20,629 nucleotides of DNA from a virus: positions 1-20,629 of IMG/VR virus record IMGVR_UViG_3300049027_000023. One strand, given 5' to 3'. The notes under the pieces are model-generated. The model saw only the letters and a list, made by a program, of their open reading frames with translations. It was not told where the DNA came from and did not search any database. Within the stretch, counting starts at the first letter, position 1. The number at the start of each line of letters is the position of its first letter. Below, one piece after another: positions 3,803 through 20,629 of the stretch. A program made the translations under genes and the position numbers.

Positions 3803-4114
3803 ATGAATGAGGCAATCACCCTCCCCCCACGGGATGCTGAGCACGAACGCATTTTGAGCATAGTGTTCGATATTTCACCACAACAGGCAAGTGTCCTGTC
3901 CTGCCTCTCCCGCGCCCAAGTGGTAACGGCAGATGAGCTTCTGGAATACACGGGGGCCATGTCGCATATCAAGGTGGTGGTCAGCCGCACCCGCAGCAAG
4001 GTGCGTGAGAAGGGGTTTGACATCAAGTCCCGCATGGGTGCCGGCTATTGGATCGAGCCCGACGATAAGAAGGGCATCGAAGCCCTCGTGCAGAAGTTCA
4101 TGGGGGGTGAGTGA
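3803..4114 (+). CDS. Winged-helix DNA-binding protein (OmpR C-terminal type)
   Basis: A 103-residue protein that is essentially one DNA-binding domain. Residues 25-85 fit the OmpR/PhoB winged helix: SPQQASVLSCL, VVTADELLEYTG, a recognition helix around HIKVVVSRTRSKV (55-67) and the closing hairpin GFDIKSRMGAGYWI (71-84), which mirrors the family's GxGYxL end. There is no receiver domain, so binding is not phosphorylation-controlled in the usual way. It is the first gene behind the strong promoter at 3731-3759, as expected for a phage regulator. The next gene overlaps it (TGATG). The ribosome site is modest (GGGAAAG about 10 bases upstream). It is one candidate reader of the dispersed palindrome, which is inference only. 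Confidence 0.75.
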   Translation: MNEAITLPPRDAEHERILSIVFDISPQQASVLSCLSRAQVVTADELLEYTGAMSHIKVVVSRTRSKVREKGFDIKSRMGAGYWIEPDDKKGIEALVQKFMGGE

Positions 4115-4437
4115 TGGCTTTGCAACACGGAGCACTGCAAGACCCAACTATAACTTTCAAGGCATCGGACCTCAGAATGACTGACCTAACTTTCCATGAC
4201 GTTCCGCGTAACATCATGGTGCAGATAGGCGTCATGGAGCACATGCAGCTTTTGTTTGCACGGCTGAGGGTACCGCAGGGGCAGACTACGCCTTTCTCTT
4301 TCCTCAACTGCCATGTCGGTGACAAGAAAGCGTTTGTGTTTGTCGTTAAGAACGGCGAAGCAGTCACGCTTGAAGATGACCCCGACCTGTTTCCATCCGA
4401 CGCCCTGATTGGCCAGCTTCGCTTGCTGATCGGGTAA
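4114..4437 (+). CDS. Unknown phage protein
   Basis: Encodes 107 residues from ATG 4114, which overlaps the previous stop codon (TGATG); a GTG at 4111 in the same frame is less likely. A GGGGGG run at 4102-4107 serves as ribosome site. The protein alternates beta-like stretches (FSFLNCHVG, KAFVFVVKNG) with acidic turns and has no cysteine cluster or membrane segment. No family recognised. It ends just before a palindrome copy that forms the leader of the next gene. Confidence 0.7.
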   Translation: MALQHGALQDPTITFKASDLRMTDLTFHDVPRNIMVQIGVMEHMQLLFARLRVPQGQTTPFSFLNCHVGDKKAFVFVVKNGEAVTLEDDPDLFPSDALIGQLRLLIG

Positions 4438-9243: not shown

Positions 9244-10548
9244 ATGAACCAGCTTATCCCTCACAACTTCGGTGCGGTGTCAACGAAGTTCGCTGGCACT
9301 CAGGTCAATGACGATCTGTCCTCCGGCATTCAAAGCTCCTTCGGTCTCATCGGCTACAAGGGCAAAGTTTGGTCTATCCGCTACCGTGGAGAAGAGCAGC
9401 AGTTGATGCGTGACGACGGCGACGGCCCGCGCGGCAGCATCGAAGTCGTCATTCTCAATTCCTCCAAAGCCATCTCGAAAATCTGGTACGAGAACGGCTA
9501 CGTTGAAGGCTCCAACGCGGCGCCGGATTGCTTCTCCAACAATGGCGTTTCGCCGGAACCGACCTCGGCCAAGAAGCAGTGCGATAGCTGTGCCCTCTGC
9601 CCGCATAACCAGTGGGGCAGCCGCATTACCCCGGCAGGTAAGCAGGGCAAGGCATGCTCCGACAGCAAGCGCCTCGCCGTGGTGCCGCAGGCCGACCTCA
9701 ACAACGACGTATACGGCGGACCCATGTTGCTCCGGGTACCGGCAGCCTCGTTGCAGGACTTGGCCATGTACGGCAGCAAGATGAACCAGATGGGCTATCC
9801 CTACTTTGCCGTCGCCACCCGTATCGCGTTCGACCCGGCAGAGAGCTTCCCGAAGTTCGTCTTCAACGCCATCCGCCCGCTGAACGATGAAGAGGCTGAC
9901 CTTGTCATCGCTATGCGCGACGGCCATCAGGTCAACCGCATCCTCTCGGAAAACGAGTTCGCCACCGTCCCCGCAGCCGGCCAGTCGGGCCAAGTTGGCC
10001 AGCAGGAAAGCGTGTTCGAGCAGCCTGTCCAACAGCAGGCATCGGTAGGCGATCAGGCCAGAGCCCTAGCCGCCCAGCAGGCAGCCGCAGCGCAACAGGC
10101 AGCAGCACAGGCACAAGCCCGTGCCCAAGCAGAAGCACAGGCCAAGGCACAGGCAGAAGCCAAGGCAGCAGCACAGGCCCAGCAGGCACAAGCCCAGCAG
10201 GAGACCCCGCCGGCAGCGAGCGGGTTTGGCGCCACTCAGCCGGTTACCTCGCAGGGTAACGCCCAGCAGGAAGAAGACCCCATCCAGCGCAAGATGCGTG
10301 AGATGGAAGCCGAGCTTGAGCGCATGAAGGCCGCTGCCCAGCAGCCGGTTGAGCAAGCCCAGAAGGAAGACGTGGGAAACGCTGTTGCTTCGACGGCGGC
10401 AGCCCAGCAGCCTACCGAACAGGCCCATGCCCAAGGACAGGCTTCGACTGCGACGGCATCGCCTTCTGACGGCGGCATGAACATGGCATCGGCGTTCGAG
10501 AACGATCTCGATAGCATGCTCGCTGAACTCCTCCCGCCCTCCAATTAA
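9244..10548 (+). CDS. Probable ssDNA-binding protein with zinc motif and Gln/Ala-rich tail
   Basis: A 434-residue protein with AGGAGA (9233-9238) before ATG 9244. Residues 1-240 form a conserved phage domain with cysteines C96, C113, C116, C119 and C138 in DCFSNNG, KQCDSCALCPHNQWGSR and GKACSDSKRLAVVP, a likely zinc-binding module. I know this pattern from phage proteins in replication modules that are thought to bind ssDNA. About residues 250-330 are a Gln/Ala-rich low-complexity helix. A charged coiled segment (KMREMEAELERMKAAA) and an acidic end (FENDLDSMLAELL) follow, the latter comparable to SSB tails that recruit partners. Own promoter upstream, hairpin terminator downstream. The specific role is inferred. 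Confidence 0.65.
   Translation: MNQLIPHNFGAVSTKFAGTQVNDDLSSGIQSSFGLIGYKGKVWSIRYRGEEQQLMRDDGDGPRGSIEVVILNSSKAISKIWYENGYVEGSNAAPDCFSNNGVSPEPTSAKKQCDSCALCPHNQWGSRITPAGKQGKACSDSKRLAVVPQADLNNDVYGGPMLLRVPAASLQDLAMYGSKMNQMGYPYFAVATRIAFDPAESFPKFVFNAIRPLNDEEADLVIAMRDGHQVNRILSENEFATVPAAGQSGQVGQQESVFEQPVQQQASVGDQARALAAQQAAAAQQAAAQAQARAQAEAQAKAQAEAKAAAQAQQAQAQQETPPAASGFGATQPVTSQGNAQQEEDPIQRKMREMEAELERMKAAAQQPVEQAQKEDVGNAVASTAAAQQPTEQAHAQGQASTATASPSDGGMNMASAFENDLDSMLAELLPPSN
9625..9642. repeat. Dispersed palindrome, degenerate (two mismatches)
   Basis: ATTACC CCGGCA GGTAAG in the zinc-motif region of the SSB-like gene, read as ITPAGK in the VTxxGN register. Confidence 0.4.
10051..10200 (+). repeat. Low-complexity Gln/Ala coding repeat
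   Basis: Imperfect iterations of short units such as GCACAGGCA and CAAGCCCAG encode a run of Gln and Ala with scattered Arg, Glu and Lys. The protein would be a long charged helix similar in style to TolA linkers. Length is likely to vary between relatives through slippage. Confidence 0.75.
10243..10260. repeat. Dispersed palindrome, perfect
   Basis: GTTACC TCGCAG GGTAAC in the low-complexity tail of the SSB-like gene, read as VTSQGN. Confidence 0.9.
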
Positions 10549-10608: not shown

Positions 10609-10631
10609 AATTTCGGGGAGCCTCGCACCAA

Positions 10632-10730
10632 ATGATTGCCCAAAACCCCACCAAGCTATTCCTAGCCCGCGTGCTGGCTTGGCCACAGGATGGCGATACG
10701 GTCGCTTACGTCAACATCCACAACCTTTGA
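10632..10730 (+). CDS. N-terminal segment of the primase, joined by a suspected +1 frameshift
   Basis: ATG 10632 is preceded by GGGGAG (10615-10620) and opens a 32-codon frame ending CTT TGA (10725-10730). The peptide (MIAQNPTKLFLARVLAWPQD, then GDTVAYVNIHNL) is protein-like and has G or C at most third positions. The primase frame over the same bases (10690-10728) reads MAIRSLTSTSTTF, a typical out-of-frame Ser/Thr run. Skipping one base at CTT-T-GA would join HNL to EPPDMSKVKID. CTT-TGA is the slip codon and stop used in the prfB programmed frameshift. It could equally be a one-base sequencing error, or a true short leader peptide. Confidence 0.6.
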   Translation: MIAQNPTKLFLARVLAWPQDGDTVAYVNIHNL

Positions 10731-13700
10731 ACCACCGGACATGTCCAAGGTCAAGATTGACCCTAAGACAGGCAAGCCCAAACTCCCATGGGCAGGAGTT
10801 GCCTGCCGTGACTTGGGCCAAGCGGTCAAGGTCATCGACAAGTTCAACAACACCCCGACCACCAAGGACGTGTATTTCTGCACGTCCACGCAAGCGTATG
10901 CCGAGAAAAAGACCTCGCAGAAGGGTTTCACTTGGTACAAGGCCGTGCGGGCTTCCGAGAATGCCGTCAAGATGAAGGCCCTGTTTATTGACAGCGACCT
11001 CGTGGACGGCAAGTCCGAAGAAAACAAGGATAAGGGTTACGAGAGCAAGGAAGCGTTCGGCAGTGCACTGGTCGAGTTCCTGAAAGCAACCGGCCTGCCG
11101 CGTCCGACGATCATCGTATCATCGGGTGGTGGCTTCCATATGTACTGGACGCTGATGCGCGCACTCAGCACCCAAGACTGGATGCCTCTTGCCTATGCGC
11201 TCGCGGAAGCGACCAAGCGCCATGGCTTCAAGTGCGACCCCCAGTGCACCATTGACGCTGCCCGTGTCCTCCGTGTCCCCGGCACCAAGAATTATAAATA
11301 CGATCCGCCTCGCGACGTTACCTTTGCGGGTAACCCGTTGGAGTACGACTACAGCAACGAAAAGATTGCGACCGCCTTGGAGCCTTATAAGGTCCAAGTC
11401 CCCTATAGTACCCTCAACGCTGCAATGACCATCCTGCCGCCAAGGACGCCCATACAGGGGCTTTCTGACCTTTCGGCGGGTATAGACACATCCAGCACCG
11501 CGCCCGTAAAATTAGACAGTCTTGTCTTCACCTGTGGCTTCATCGCGGAAGCACTGGCAACGGGCGGCTCGAACTTCCAGAACCCACTGTGGAACCTGAC
11601 CACGCTTATCTCAACCTTCACGGAAGGTGGTAGGGCCGACGCGCATCGTATGGCGTCGGGTCACAGTGACTATGGGCCGGGGGAGACCGACGAACTCTAT
11701 GATCGGAAGATGGAAGAGAAGTTGGTAAAGAACCTGGGATGGCCGAAGTGTGCGACCATTGCGCAGAGTGGCTGCTCTGCCTGTGCCGCATGCCCTAAAT
11801 TCATCGAGAACAAGTCCCCCTTGAACTTCGGTGATAAGGTGACGGCGAACCTTGGCAGCAATATGGCCATGGCGGCGAACGGTGGCTTCTCGCAGGCTGC
11901 CAATCCGTTACCCCAACAGGTAACCCAACCGCAGCAGCAACAGATGGCGACGGTATCCCCGCTCATCATCCCCGGCACGGGTCAGCAAGACCCCGACTTG
12001 CCGGATGGCTATCTTCGCACCAACATGGGCCAAGTGCTCTACCCCCAACACCTTGAAGACGGCACCACCACGTGGCTGCCGGTGTCCCGCTACCCGATGG
12101 TTGACCCTTGGATGCAACGCGATCCTTGGTCACTCAACTTCACCACCGAGACCGAGTTTGGCAAGCTCTCCCAGATCAGCGTACCCCTGAAAGACGTGGG
12201 CACAGCCGAGATGAAAAAGAGCCTGCAAGAGCAAGGTTTCATGGTGACTGGCGGACCACGAGGCTTCAACAACCTGACGGAATTTGTTATGGCATGGATC
12301 ACGAAACTACAGACGACGCGGGATAGTATCGTCACCTCTGTCCCATTCGGCTGGCTGGTCAAGGGCGGTAAGACGCAAGGCTTCGTTTACGGCGGCAAGC
12401 TCCACACCCCTGCCGGCGAGGAAGTAGCCTCGAACACCGACCCGGAATTGGCACGGCAGTTCTCCCCCGAGGGCGACCGGCAACCGTGGATCACGGCGGC
12501 GGAAATGATCACCAAGCAGAACCGGCCCGCGCTCGATGCCATCCTTGCATCCGCCTTCGCCGGCCCGTTGGTCCGCTTCACTGGCCACTCCGGTCTACTC
12601 CTTTCGGCTTACTCCATAGAGAGTGGTATTGGTAAGTCCACTGCCCTCAAGATAGCCCAAGCGGTATGGGGTGACCCGGTGAAGGCCGTCCAGTCCCTCT
12701 CGGACACACAGAACTCAGTGCTCAACAAGCTGGGCGAGCTGCGCTCCCTGCCGGTGTACTGGGACGAATTGAAGTCGGATGACGACGCCAAGCGCTTCGT
12801 GGATACAGTGTTCCGTCTCACACTGGGTAAGGAGAAGTCTCGCATGACTTCAAAGGTGCAGCAGCGCACCCCCGGCACGTGGCAGACGGTCATGGTGGCG
12901 GCGTCGAACGAGAGCCTTATGGACGCGGTTACCGCCCGCACCCGAGCCACCACTGCCGGCCTCTACCGCGTGTTCGAGTACACGGTGGAGAAGCCACAAC
13001 CCGGCACCCCGGGCCAGATCGACCCTACGGTGGCGCAGCGTATTCTGGCGAAGCTCCACGACAACTACGGGAACGTCGGGCTCGAATACGCCAGTTACCT
13101 TGGACGTAACCATCAGCAGGTTGAAGCGGACATCGCAGCCATGCTCACGACGGTCGGCCAAGAAACGGGAATGCAGCCGGATGAGCGCTTCTGGATTGCT
13201 CTTATCGGCACCCTCCTCCTCGGCGCCCGGTACTCCAATATGCTGGGCTTCACCAACATCAACGAGGTGGCGCTGAAACTCTTCCTCTACAAGACGCTCA
13301 AAGAAATGCGTGGCCAGCGTGCAGCACAGCCGGTGGACCTCCGCAACATCGCCAACGTCGTCAACACGCTGGCTCGCTTCCTAAACGAGAACCGCGCCCG
13401 CCATACCCTCGTCACCAACATCATCCACAAGGGCCGTGGCAAGCCCCCTGCCGGATCGGTGGAGATCAAGCACGACGCCAGCCGCCTCGACGCACTCCAC
13501 GTCCATTACGGTCTGGATGACAAGATCATCCGCATCGGGCAGTCTTATCTATATGACTGGCTTGCCGCCAACCACTACCCCCGCCACGTCTTCATCAGGG
13601 CGCTGCATGAGGAGATGAAAGCCACCCATATCAACGGCAGGCTTGGGGCGGGTACCGCATTCGCCAACGCGGCGGAATACCTGATCGAGATCGACATGAA

Positions 13701-13737
13701 GGGGACGCCCCTCGTGAACTTCATTGATGAAAGCTAG
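10690..13737 (+). CDS. AEP-type primase fused to a DUF927-like superfamily 3 helicase
   Basis: A large replication initiator of 1015 residues from ATG 10690 (998 from ATG 10741; about 1034 if the upstream 32 codons are joined). The primase part carries KALFIDSDL (D101, D103), SGGGFHMYW (H150) and CTIDAARVLRVPGTKNYK (D189), the three AEP motifs. A cysteine cluster follows (C354, C362, C365, C368). The C-terminal part has Walker A ESGIGKST (K649), Walker B LPVYWDEL (D692, E693) and sensor-like VMVAASNES, as in DUF927-type phage helicases. It should unwind and prime phage DNA. Neither 10690 nor 10741 has a convincing ribosome site, supporting initiation at 10632. Two perfect palindromes (11317, 11907) and one degenerate copy (13094) lie inside. 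Confidence 0.88.
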   Translation: MAIRSLTSTSTTFEPPDMSKVKIDPKTGKPKLPWAGVACRDLGQAVKVIDKFNNTPTTKDVYFCTSTQAYAEKKTSQKGFTWYKAVRASENAVKMKALFIDSDLVDGKSEENKDKGYESKEAFGSALVEFLKATGLPRPTIIVSSGGGFHMYWTLMRALSTQDWMPLAYALAEATKRHGFKCDPQCTIDAARVLRVPGTKNYKYDPPRDVTFAGNPLEYDYSNEKIATALEPYKVQVPYSTLNAAMTILPPRTPIQGLSDLSAGIDTSSTAPVKLDSLVFTCGFIAEALATGGSNFQNPLWNLTTLISTFTEGGRADAHRMASGHSDYGPGETDELYDRKMEEKLVKNLGWPKCATIAQSGCSACAACPKFIENKSPLNFGDKVTANLGSNMAMAANGGFSQAANPLPQQVTQPQQQQMATVSPLIIPGTGQQDPDLPDGYLRTNMGQVLYPQHLEDGTTTWLPVSRYPMVDPWMQRDPWSLNFTTETEFGKLSQISVPLKDVGTAEMKKSLQEQGFMVTGGPRGFNNLTEFVMAWITKLQTTRDSIVTSVPFGWLVKGGKTQGFVYGGKLHTPAGEEVASNTDPELARQFSPEGDRQPWITAAEMITKQNRPALDAILASAFAGPLVRFTGHSGLLLSAYSIESGIGKSTALKIAQAVWGDPVKAVQSLSDTQNSVLNKLGELRSLPVYWDELKSDDDAKRFVDTVFRLTLGKEKSRMTSKVQQRTPGTWQTVMVAASNESLMDAVTARTRATTAGLYRVFEYTVEKPQPGTPGQIDPTVAQRILAKLHDNYGNVGLEYASYLGRNHQQVEADIAAMLTTVGQETGMQPDERFWIALIGTLLLGARYSNMLGFTNINEVALKLFLYKTLKEMRGQRAAQPVDLRNIANVVNTLARFLNENRARHTLVTNIIHKGRGKPPAGSVEIKHDASRLDALHVHYGLDDKIIRIGQSYLYDWLAANHYPRHVFIRALHEEMKATHINGRLGAGTAFANAAEYLIEIDMKGTPLVNFIDES
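11317..11334. repeat. Dispersed palindrome, perfect
   Basis: GTTACC TTTGCG GGTAAC in the primase domain, read as VTFAGN. Confidence 0.9.
11907..11924. repeat. Dispersed palindrome, perfect
   Basis: GTTACC CCAACA GGTAAC in the linker between primase and helicase, read as PLPQQVT, another frame. Confidence 0.9.
13094..13110. repeat. Dispersed palindrome, degenerate, 5-base spacer
   Basis: GTTACC TTGGA CGTAAC in the helicase part of the primase gene, read as SYLGRN (third frame). Confidence 0.5.
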
Positions 13738-15357: not shown

Positions 15358-18300
15358 CTAAAAGTCGTAGGTTCTTTCAGCCCGATCAAGGATGTGTTGC
15401 TCGCGTCGGCGGGCACGGATGCCTTCCTTGGTCTCCTTCATATCACGCTGCAACCGCTTTTGATACCCCCGCAGCTCAGAAAGTGACAACCGAGCATCAA
15501 CCGGCTGGCCCCTATTCCACTTCTGAATTTCCCTCCACAATCTACCACGGGCTGCACCGTTGGCCTCGACCCATTCCCGCTGGAATTGTGTACGGATGTC
15601 GTTGAGCTTGTCGCGCCCCCGGTAGAAAGCTGCCGACCGCTCGAACCCTTCCGCCTCCCGTGCCGGCGTGAAGCCGAACGCCCGTAGCGCTGCTTCTCCC
15701 ACCGAATAGGGCTCCATAACCTGCTTGCCGGTCTTTTCACTGACCGAGCCCTCGGTGTAGGTGCGATACGCCTTAATACTGTCGGACAGGGCCTTGACCG
15801 GGATAAGGCGCTCTGCCGCCCGTACAAGGTCACCCTGCGCCAGATCGTTGATACCCTTGGCCCAGTCGGCAACTAGGCCGGCAGGCGCACCGGCTACCGT
15901 ATCCCAGACATAAGCCTTCCAGTCCTGCGCCTCATTGGAGCGCGGCTCCCCGAACGGCCCCATGAGGGTGTCAATCCCCATACGGCTGGACAGGTCGATA
16001 CCGGCAGCACGCGGCAGGCCACGGGAAACAATCTCACCGAACTGCTTGCCGAACATGTCGGCCATGGCTTCACGCTGCGCCGTCTCGATGTCACCCCAGT
16101 TCCAATCAATAACCCCAAGACCATTGGCCGCTGTCACGACGAGGCGGATCGGCTCCGTAGGTAGCCCCATGGCACCGGCAACAAGGACGTGCATCCCGAT
16201 GGTGTAGGACAGGGACTTGAGAGCCCTAGCACGGTCGCCGGGGTTCTCGTTGCGCACCGCCATAGCTACCTGCTCACCAAGCAACTGATACATGCTCAGG
16301 CCATACTTCTTGAACTGCAACGCCAGTCGAAGAACCGGATGGTTCATGAAGGGCGCCGTGTTCGAGGCCGAATAGTTGAACTGTGTCAGATTGACCGTGT
16401 CCTGTGCGAACTGGATGGCACGGGCTTGGTCACCCGAGCGGGCCATTTCCAGCCGGTAGGCAGCGATGGCCGACACGGAGCGGTTGATGGCTTCGACCGT
16501 CTTGGGCATCTGTCGGGCGATACCTTCAAGGTAACCAATGCCCTTGTCGAACTTACCGACGATCCCCTTGCTCTCCTGTACCAGCCTGCCCACCTCAAGG
16601 CCGCTATCTGTGTCGATGACGCCACGCTCTACCAGTATGTCAATCAGGGCTTGCTCGCCTTTATTGGTCAGGCGATTGCGGATGAGGGTTACCGGGTCGG
16701 TAGGGACAAGTGTGTTCCCCGGCTTAAACTTCGATACCGTGTCAGCCAGACCGCGCTTGATAGCCGCCATAGACCCAACGTCACTGTACGCCTTGGACAT
16801 GGCCGCATACGCCTTGCCGGCGCCATACTGGCCAGCAAGGTAGGGTGCCGTGGTCATCATGGGCTGGGTGGCGTTGATGATCGAGTAGGTAGGCGACATC
16901 AGCTTGTCGATGAAGGACATGGAGAGGATACGGCTCGATAGAGCGTTCCACCCCTTGTTCTCGGCAATCGGGTTTGGCGTGGTGGCGCGCCGCAGCACCT
17001 CGTTCTGAATGGCCGTGCGGCCTGCTTGGAAACCGTCTCTTCCACCCTGCTTAACCGCGTCCGCCATCTCCTCCAAGGCGGCATCCAGTTGCGGCCTGAA
17101 ATCCAGCTTGGCGATGTAGTTGCCGGATGCATGGGCATAGTCGGTCGTGTTCCGTACCAAGTCCTTCGACGCACCGGCCACGTATTGACGCGGCAGAGAG
17201 CGGGACTGGATGCGGGTAGAGCCCAGCATGGACATGGACACTTCGTTCATGGTCGAGAGCAATTCGTGCTTCTGTTCCGGCGTCATGTCCCGGGCATCGG
17301 CACGGCGCTCCAACACCGTGTTGAGGCGGCGCATCTGTGTAGACAGGGCATCGGCCTGAATACCGTAGTTCTCGAATGCACGCGGCACGGCATCGTCCAC
17401 GTCAAAGCCGTGAGCCCTGAGTTCAGCCACGCGGTTGCTGGCCTCCTTCATGGTGTCGAACATCTCCATATGGCGGTCCTGCACCACGACACGATAGCGC
17501 GGCTCCGCGTTCATGTCCTCGGCGGTAAGCCTGACCGTCTTACCATTCTCCGTGCCCGTCGTCTCGCCAGTGGTCTTGTCCACATAAACCGTTCTGATGG
17601 TCGGACGGCCAGACTGGGTTGCGGCGTAGTCGGCGGCAGCATCCTTGTCTTTAAACTCGAACTCGTTGTCCGAAATCTTCGTGGCGTTACCCGGCGTGGT
17701 AACCTTGTACCGGCCCTTCACGACGTAATTGCCACGGCGCATGAGGGGGAAGTACGGCCCATTGATCTTGGACAGGGTACCAGCGGCGGCGATGGCGTCG
17801 TATGCCTCGCCCATCAGGGCCTTGTCAGCATCGGTCACGCTGCCGTCATGGATACGCTGCGCCAATCCCTCCGGGTCGGGGGTGTCAAAAAGTGTCACTA
17901 TCCGGTTGCGGATGAGCTTGAGCGCAATCTCATTCTGCTTGTTGCGGAAGTAATCCATCGCCTCCTGCCGTGCTGCCTTGAGGTCGGCGGGCAGGGCATT
18001 GAAGCGGCGGGCCAGTTCCGGGTGCTGGGCGCGTGCCCAACTGTCTTTGGCTCCCTTCTTGGAGATATGCTTCTGATCAGCGAGCGGCTTGTCAGCGAAC
18101 ACCCCTGCCATGGTCTCGTCGTGGACAAGGGTGGTGAAGTCCGTCCACACGTCGCCACGGTACTTATGGGACAGGTCATGGAGCTTCTGGATAATCGGTG
18201 CCGCCTTGTCGAACTCCTTGGCCGCAGCGACACGCTGGCCCTCTATCAGGTTGGCCACCTTGCGTACCGGGTTGTTCTTGCCAAAGTAGCGGTCGGCGGC

Positions 18301-20629
18301 GCGGGCGATGCTGTCAAAGGTCCGCAGGCCCATAAGCTGGGGGTTGCCTTGGGTCGGTGCCAGATCACGCCGTTGCTGGAAGTCCCTGAGAGTTTCCTTC
18401 AATTTGTCCGTCAGGGCACTGATGCTGCCGTCCTCAAGGAACGCCTTCCCACTGGCCTCTTCGACGTTTCGGGGGGCCATCGACCGTTCCGTTACCCGGA
18501 TGGCGGCTTCCAGCAGAGAATGCGTTGCTTTCGGCAATCCGAGAATGCGGCGGACGGCAGAGATGAGCGCGTCCCACATGCTGCGCACCGGAGCGTCGAG
18601 GTCGAAGACATCAACCACGGCACCATCAGCCGGTATCCTGCCAAGAAGCTCTTGGAAGTCGGGGTTGGAGAATGCCTCCGCTACGAACTCGCGGGGGGAA
18701 GTCAGGGCATAGTTGGCCGTGCGCGTGTCAGCGTCGTTGTCGAGCGCAATCTGGACATAGTACATCAGGTCCATGATGTTGCTCTCAAGGCGGCGGTCGG
18801 TGACGATACGCCGGATGGTAGCAGCGTGGGTTACCTCATGAAGTAACGTGTGCCGCAGGGCATCCGGGTTGTCCATCAGGTCGGAGCGGATAAACACCGC
18901 CTCGACGTTGCCACGGAAGGAGTGGTAGCCACGCGGCGGAAGGTCACCCTCCCAACCGGACATGCGCTTCATGTCGTCGGGCCGGATAAAGTGCACGTCC
19001 ACGTCCCCGACGATCTTGGAGAGGATGGAGCGTGCGTTGCCGGCAAGAACTCTCGGAAGCCCGCGCAAGGTTGCGAGGTCAAGGTCAGCCATCACCTCGG
19101 ACGCCTTACGGGTCGATACCGGCTGGGCCACCTCACGGGTCACCGGATCACGAACAAGCCCCATGGGTAGGGGCTGCTCGACCATGGCGTTAACAGCGTT
19201 CTCGAAATCATCCTCGATCATCAGGGAGCGGGCTTCGCGAGCCTCTTCCTCTGTCAGGCCGGATCGGTCCTTGGGGTCGCTATTCACCCACTCCTTAAAC
19301 TCGGTGTGCGTCATCTTGCGGAGGTCACCGACGCGCTCGGCGCCGCGCCCATCGGAGAATGCCTTGTCATAGGCCGTCAGGGCTGCCTGTTCGTTCTTGA
19401 AGCCCATCATGACCTTGTGCTCATCAAAGGCACGGGTATCCGGGTCCACCTGATCCACGACGTAGACATACGCCGCCTCGTGATCGGGGCCGACATAGAC
19501 ATCCACCGGGTCACCATCGGCGCCCTTGGTACCTTCGATGTAGCCGTAGTCGGCAGGCATCTTCACCGACCACTTCGGGCCGTTGGGGTCTTTGTTGGAG
19601 CGGATGGAGCCCTTGGGGTTCTCGATGGCGATGGCATTGCCGTGGATGCTCACCCGGCCCTTCTTGTAGTTGCCAGTCTCAGCCTGCCGTTGGGTCGGGT
19701 CTGTGTTGGTCTCTTGGCGAGCACGCTCGACGCGGGCCTTGATCTCGGCCAGCTTTGAAGGGGCCTTGTCGCGCTCGGCAAGGACACCCTTCCAGTGGTC
19801 CATCAACTTGTTGACATTCTCAGCACTGGGGCTTGCGGAACCCACCAGTTGGGGGAAGCCGTAATATGTGCTGTTGCCTGTCTTTGAGCGAAGGTAATCA
19901 AAGTCCTCCTGAGAAAGCTCATCCGCCCACTTGCGCATCCTGTTAAGGTCGGCCACGCCGTCCACAGTATTCTTGGTGATCTGTATCTGGCCGTAGGTGA
20001 TGCGCTTCACAGGCTCCGGGTTACCTTCGGTGGTAACTTCCGTAACCTTGGGGGTAACCGGGGGCTTGGTTATTTTCCGCTTCTTGATCGCCTCGATCTT
20101 CGGCGCCGCACGACCTTCCTTCGGCACGGTGTACAGGGCTTCCCCAAGCGCCTTATCGATGCTGGCGGGGATGCGTTCTTCCTTGGCCTTGGGCCGTACC
20201 CCTGCTTCCTCGGCAGCCTCCTCCTTGGCAATAAGGGCCGCTTCCGGCGTAGATGCGTCTGCCGGGGCGTCGGTATCGGTCAGCGTGTCCACGCCTACAT
20301 CCGCCGACTGGCGCATGGCTGCGTCACCTTCTGCACGGCGCTCGGCAATGGCCTGATCGATGCTGCCCGTGCGAACGTCCAGTTCACGCATCATGAAGCG
20401 TTCGTAGTCGGCAGGTTCGGGGTTCTGCTTGGACGCCAGCCGCCGCGCCTCCATAACCAGAAGGGTCTCGGGGTTGTAGCCGTCTTCATTCGTGTTGTCG
20501 CGGAACGCCTTGGGGACTGCCAGCCCCATAGTCTTGGCTTCCTCGGAGATAGCGCGGGCGCGGTCGAGCAAGAGCTTACGCGCACTCACCTTCTCCTGCG
20601 GGCGCTTGGACAACAGGCCAGCCTCTTCC
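15358..20629 (-). CDS. Giant polyvalent virion protein (pyrophosphatase-like, zincin, PLxRFG), 5' end outside the window
   Basis: The frame is open to the right edge; the TTG at 20613 is not a convincing start because five more sense codons precede it. At least 1756 residues are encoded. Counting from 20613, about 314-440 resemble the pyrophosphatase-like domain of phage polyvalent proteins (GADGDPVDVYVGPDH), 588-598 hold a zincin motif LLHEVTHAAT (H592, E593, H596), and 1426-1438 read PVLRLALQFKKYG, the PLxRFG signature. The N-terminus is charged and helical, as is the C-terminal end. Such proteins are packaged in heads and injected with the DNA, where they act on host components or aid genome entry. 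Four palindrome copies and two weaker ones lie inside. Domain calls rest on motifs, not alignments. Confidence 0.85.
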   Translation of the reverse strand, partial: EEAGLLSKRPQEKVSARKLLLDRARAISEEAKTMGLAVPKAFRDNTNEDGYNPETLLVMEARRLASKQNPEPADYERFMMRELDVRTGSIDQAIAERRAEGDAAMRQSADVGVDTLTDTDAPADASTPEAALIAKEEAAEEAGVRPKAKEERIPASIDKALGEALYTVPKEGRAAPKIEAIKKRKITKPPVTPKVTEVTTEGNPEPVKRITYGQIQITKNTVDGVADLNRMRKWADELSQEDFDYLRSKTGNSTYYGFPQLVGSASPSAENVNKLMDHWKGVLAERDKAPSKLAEIKARVERARQETNTDPTQRQAETGNYKKGRVSIHGNAIAIENPKGSIRSNKDPNGPKWSVKMPADYGYIEGTKGADGDPVDVYVGPDHEAAYVYVVDQVDPDTRAFDEHKVMMGFKNEQAALTAYDKAFSDGRGAERVGDLRKMTHTEFKEWVNSDPKDRSGLTEEEAREARSLMIEDDFENAVNAMVEQPLPMGLVRDPVTREVAQPVSTRKASEVMADLDLATLRGLPRVLAGNARSILSKIVGDVDVHFIRPDDMKRMSGWEGDLPPRGYHSFRGNVEAVFIRSDLMDNPDALRHTLLHEVTHAATIRRIVTDRRLESNIMDLMYYVQIALDNDADTRTANYALTSPREFVAEAFSNPDFQELLGRIPADGAVVDVFDLDAPVRSMWDALISAVRRILGLPKATHSLLEAAIRVTERSMAPRNVEEASGKAFLEDGSISALTDKLKETLRDFQQRRDLAPTQGNPQLMGLRTFDSIARAADRYFGKNNPVRKVANLIEGQRVAAAKEFDKAAPIIQKLHDLSHKYRGDVWTDFTTLVHDETMAGVFADKPLADQKHISKKGAKDSWARAQHPELARRFNALPADLKAARQEAMDYFRNKQNEIALKLIRNRIVTLFDTPDPEGLAQRIHDGSVTDADKALMGEAYDAIAAAGTLSKINGPYFPLMRRGNYVVKGRYKVTTPGNATKISDNEFEFKDKDAAADYAATQSGRPTIRTVYVDKTTGETTGTENGKTVRLTAEDMNAEPRYRVVVQDRHMEMFDTMKEASNRVAELRAHGFDVDDAVPRAFENYGIQADALSTQMRRLNTVLERRADARDMTPEQKHELLSTMNEVSMSMLGSTRIQSRSLPRQYVAGASKDLVRNTTDYAHASGNYIAKLDFRPQLDAALEEMADAVKQGGRDGFQAGRTAIQNEVLRRATTPNPIAENKGWNALSSRILSMSFIDKLMSPTYSIINATQPMMTTAPYLAGQYGAGKAYAAMSKAYSDVGSMAAIKRGLADTVSKFKPGNTLVPTDPVTLIRNRLTNKGEQALIDILVERGVIDTDSGLEVGRLVQESKGIVGKFDKGIGYLEGIARQMPKTVEAINRSVSAIAAYRLEMARSGDQARAIQFAQDTVNLTQFNYSASNTAPFMNHPVLRLALQFKKYGLSMYQLLGEQVAMAVRNENPGDRARALKSLSYTIGMHVLVAGAMGLPTEPIRLVVTAANGLGVIDWNWGDIETAQREAMADMFGKQFGEIVSRGLPRAAGIDLSSRMGIDTLMGPFGEPRSNEAQDWKAYVWDTVAGAPAGLVADWAKGINDLAQGDLVRAAERLIPVKALSDSIKAYRTYTEGSVSEKTGKQVMEPYSVGEAALRAFGFTPAREAEGFERSAAFYRGRDKLNDIRTQFQREWVEANGAARGRLWREIQKWNRGQPVDARLSLSELRGYQKRLQRDMKETKEGIRARRREQHILDRAERTYDF
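16519..16535. repeat. Dispersed palindrome, degenerate, 5-base spacer
   Basis: GATACC TTCAA GGTAAC in the giant gene, read on the - strand as GYLEGI. Confidence 0.5.
17686..17703. repeat. Dispersed palindrome, perfect
   Basis: GTTACC CGGCGT GGTAAC in the giant gene, read on the - strand as VTTPGN. Confidence 0.9.
18830..18847. repeat. Dispersed palindrome, one mismatch, over the zincin active site
   Basis: GTTACC TCATGA AGTAAC; on the - strand it encodes TLLHEVT, part of the HEVTH zinc-binding motif. Confidence 0.75.
20020..20037. repeat. Dispersed palindrome, perfect
   Basis: GTTACC TTCGGT GGTAAC in the giant gene, read on the - strand as VTTEGN. A second copy begins five bases later. Confidence 0.9.
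20042..20058. repeat. Dispersed palindrome, one mismatch, 5-base spacer
   Basis: GTAACC TTGGG GGTAAC directly beside the perfect copy at 20020-20037, forming the only doublet in the window. Confidence 0.6.

Follow-up and report, generated by a model that had tools for sequence, protein, structure and literature searches.

A two-nucleotide loss very probably accounts for the CTT-TGA frame break in a viral primase-helicase gene

The primase-helicase locus and its surroundings

The DNA considered here (the window) is a viral fragment of 20.6 kb, positions 1 to 20,629 of the IMG/VR record IMGVR_UViG_3300049027_000023, and carries a replication cluster in which a family A DNA polymerase, a PD-(D/E)XK nuclease and a SNF2-type helicase are followed by a primase-helicase. 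Directly 5' of the DNA polymerase gene lies an ORF of 149 aa (780-1229), HNH-like by eye and with a C-terminal helix-turn-helix (HTH_3), for which no counterpart was matched at that place in three compared relatives and which is possibly a mobile homing-type gene. The gene 5' of the primase ends (9990-10450) in a long Ala/Gln/Glu-rich low-complexity tail, and the make-up of this tail is unlike that in relative L006. On the minus strand, a very large polyvalent protein of at least 1751 aa (15358-20613), cut by the window end, combines an inorganic pyrophosphatase domain (PF18823, E 2.8e-50) with an LPD39 domain.

The primase-helicase is distributed over two frames of the plus strand. The first, in frame 3 (10632-10730), opens with ATG at 10632, comprises 32 codons with the translation MIAQNPTKLFLARVLAWPQDGDTVAYVNIHNL and terminates at the TGA stop at 10728-10730, which is preceded by the codon CTT at 10725-10727. 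A ribosome-binding-like GGGGAG (10615-10620) places its GGAG core 11 nt 5' of this ATG, and near relatives mostly have a comparable purine-rich site ahead of their single start. The remaining primase-helicase, an AEP core followed by a DUF927-type helicase domain, occupies frame 1 (10690-13737, 1015 codons), which is +1 relative to the small frame; its homology starts at T-F codons at about 10723. The long frame is 57-73% identical to near relatives across about 1000 aa and matches phrog_25314; its C-terminal helicase domain matches Pfam DUF927 (PF06048, E 6.5e-21) and phrog_8841 DNA primase/helicase (E 2.6e-27). The alternative starts within this frame, ATG 10690 and ATG 10741, are preceded by just 3-base ribosome-site matches at a spacing of 0-1 nt.

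A conserved N-terminal segment of the primase

The 22-residue core of the small frame shares 55-86% identity with the relatives. The frame aligns to them at scores of 100-120, whereas the two remaining frames score 11-22 and 10,000 shuffles reach 43-45 at best. Differences from the relatives fall mainly on third positions (pS 0.56-1.03, pN 0.07-0.32), which in these alignments is the pattern of purifying selection. The alignment scores, the shuffles and the third-position pattern together show that the small frame is a real coding sequence and the genuine N-terminus of an AEP/PrimPol-type primase. As its codons are still conserved, the segment would have been translated until recently, or still is. 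A preliminary description of this DNA had reported a 32-codon frame with a ribosome site and coding-like third positions that ends in CTT-TGA, a primase frame with no good ribosome site of its own, and a frame change joining the two; the GGAG 11 nt 5' of the start, the excess of pS over pN, the poor matches ahead of ATG 10690 and ATG 10741, and the need for a change at 10725-10730 into the +1 frame all agree with it.

The structural context of this segment was assessed in a model that covers residues 1-256 of the shifted product (mean pLDDT 77.5; 57-69 over the first 50 residues), which places a helix (6-14) and a strand (27-32) within the part encoded by the small frame. In a fold search, residues 4-250 of the model match the AEP domain of the cyanophage S-2L PrimPol (PDB 6zp9; Z 15.5, 180 residues, rmsd 3.2), although identity is 14% and the match is uninformative on frameshifting; the plasmid primase RepB' is also matched (Z 13.0). 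By this model the N-terminal domain is an AEP fold whose first helix and strand are supplied by the small frame, and because the alignment to PrimPol AEP domains begins at residue 4, the segment appears to be part of the catalytic domain. With its start at MSKVK, the primase would be without that first helix and strand.

A single frame in all relatives

Searches of viral_contigs yielded 42 loci with 35-73% identity to the query, the query's own record being set aside. The 5' end is present in 40 of these IMG/VR loci, the other two (L010, L054) being truncated at the start of their contigs. In all 40, a single tblastn match in one frame spans N-terminus and primase; the 40 include near-duplicates and thus represent fewer independent lineages, spread over a wide range of identity. 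The same arrangement is found in three of three Rhizobium phages (RHph_TM27A, TM29, TM3_14A), where the frame that encodes MLNSTDHSAKQFLARVVAWPQEGEPPAYVNIHNTFVPADATTL... continues into the primase. In the Rhizobium phages RHph_TM27A, TM27B, TM29 and TM3_14A, the primase-helicase resembles that of the window in a similar surrounding gene order, in a protein about 64% identical and in the shared N-terminus, but its frame is unbroken from MLNSTDHSAKQFLARVVAWPQEGEPPAYVNIHNTF to the end. In the RHph_TM phage record (L002:4303-7386) this gene carries the annotation 'putative integrase protein', apparently in error. Two frames are thus given by the window alone; neither the 40 IMG/VR loci that retain a 5' end nor the 3 Rhizobium phages include a split case.

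Origin of the CTT-TGA junction

At the nucleotide level, the junction of the window (10719-10727) is 2 nt shorter than in each aligned relative: a MAFFT alignment of nine sequences has a 2-nt gap solely in the window (catccaca--acctttgaacc). Near relatives read H-x-T-F-E/V/I-P at this place, with the codons CAT AAC ACC TTC GAA CCG in L006 and CAT TAC ACC TTT GAA CCA in L008. Conservation in the window extends up to and including H-N in the first frame and resumes at T-F-E-P in the primase frame, only two bases being missing in between. The CTT-TGA at 10725-10730 is ACC TTT GAA, the conserved Thr-Phe-Glu codons, read out of frame, so its resemblance to the shifty stop of prfB needs no selection and would be incidental. 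Intact L008 likewise has CTTTGA at this position, displaced from its reading frame within TAC ACC TTT GAA CCA; the other five relatives checked have no CTTTGA there.

Pattern searches gave no further example of such a junction. Y-V-N-I-H-N followed by CTTTGA had no match in viral_contigs, a spaced site pattern retrieved six contigs, namely L008 (again, as L020) and five with no primase N-terminus in their frames, and genome_contigs contained no relative by the same patterns. The hexamer CTTTGA occurs 16 times in the whole window, mostly on the minus strand, where dinucleotide shuffles lead one to expect 8.3 copies in the window and none of 100 attains 16. This excess is probably due to codon usage, and with so many copies the hexamer alone is not special.

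We therefore consider it very probable, from the comparison with relatives, that the primase frame was broken by a 2-nt loss in this one sequence, that CTT-TGA is a by-product of this loss and that the site is not a programmed frameshift. The loss would break the frame about 31 codons past the primase start, and the displaced frame would turn the conserved Thr-Phe-Glu codons into an early TGA stop. If the deletion is real, primase would be made only via low-level slippage at CTT-T or from the poor downstream starts, whose products would be without the catalytic domain's first helix and strand. In our judgement, the loss is about as likely to be a natural phage mutation, whose primase allele would be damaged or weakly leaky, as an assembly error confined to this place. 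The caveat in the preliminary description, that an error or a natural mutation might be involved, is thus the better reading, the relatives being unsplit and the 2-nt gap lying in the window only. Exact 23- and 24-mers of the window flanking the junction retrieved no independent record of the phage, in a collection from which very similar records may have been held back. No other window gene with relatives contains a frame break, which argues against a generally error-ridden contig; the one further candidate for a break, the gene at 4111-4437, is divergent at its N-terminus only and is unbroken.

Alternative routes to primase synthesis

CTT-TGA is, even as a by-product, exactly the shifty-stop core that allows some +1 slippage. 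If the 2-nt loss is real, tRNA-Leu might slip at the TGA, from CUU to UUU, at a low and unprogrammed level that still yields enough primase for replication, a sub-case of the 2-nt loss that we regard as unlikely. Within the prfB site, CUU-UGA matters most, the SD-like sequence and a C in the fourth position acting as enhancers (PMC13245932), and the slipped product of the window is nearly full-length. Moreover, T7 can replicate when rare expression errors are the sole source of an essential host factor, at about 10 molecules per cell (PMC12645430); by analogy with this case, a natural deletion combined with slight CTT-T slippage could leave traces of primase. The window, however, has no SD-like stimulator and an A in the fourth position, and a prfB variant without the motif elements displays no strong shifting (PMC12421855). 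The slip product, HNLEPPD, has one L instead of the conserved T-F, one residue short of the HNTFEP spacing, and nothing indicates that, at the junction, the contig reflects the genome of a viable phage. The sequence HNTFEP would be restored exactly by a -2 shift following AAC, but by our reasoning tRNA-Asn is unable to re-pair with ACA.

It is highly improbable that the locus encodes a 32-aa leader peptide and, as a second protein, a primase with its start at ATG 10690 or ATG 10741, reached possibly through re-initiation past the TGA at 10728. ATG 10690 does open the primase frame and ATG 10741 lies 10 nt past the stop, but neither has a usable ribosome site, the segment is fused to the primase in all relatives, and by its fold it belongs to the catalytic domain.

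The preliminary description had suggested a possible programmed +1 frameshift of the prfB type, sensed by release factor 2 (RF2), so that primase synthesis would depend on RF2. In prfB, the motif consists of a hyper-conserved AGGGGG, three nucleotides, CTTTGA and then C (PMC12421855). The window shares with prfB the CTT followed by TGA, a full-length product in the +1 frame and a stop about 26-33 codons from the start; it differs in that AGGGGG is absent about 3 nt 5' of CTT (the upstream sequence is CTTACGTCAACATCCACAAC, where SD matches do not reach 3 bases, as the preliminary description had itself remarked), in that TGA is followed by A (TGAA) rather than C (TGAC), and in that the split frame is not conserved in related genes. 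Although the shifty stop sits at the join and both the N-terminus and the primase frame are conserved, a programmed site is scarcely credible, given that it occurs in no relative, that the junction bears a 2-nt deletion signature, that out-of-frame T-F-E codons account for CTT-TGA, that the prfB stimulators are missing and that RNA folding 3' of the junction is not unusual (z -1.5). As the closest relatives of the window primase are only about 72% identical, a site that evolved very recently in the lineage of the window can be conceived, but we give it very little weight. It is very doubtful that a recent 2-nt loss happened to fall on a shifty stop and that a single lineage now makes its primase via leaky, RF2-sensitive +1 slippage, which would be a prfB-like switch at its birth.

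Implications

A truly programmed site would make the replication of the phage depend on host release factor 2, a dependence that would be new. Judged against its relatives, the locus instead shows a frame break of an ordinary kind, limited to one sequence, at which a shifty stop arose by accident. It also carries a caution, in that conserved Thr-Phe-Glu codons thrown out of frame by a small deletion can automatically yield a shifty-stop hexamer at the frame join; for this reason, frameshift predictions made from a single sequence need to be accompanied by relatives.
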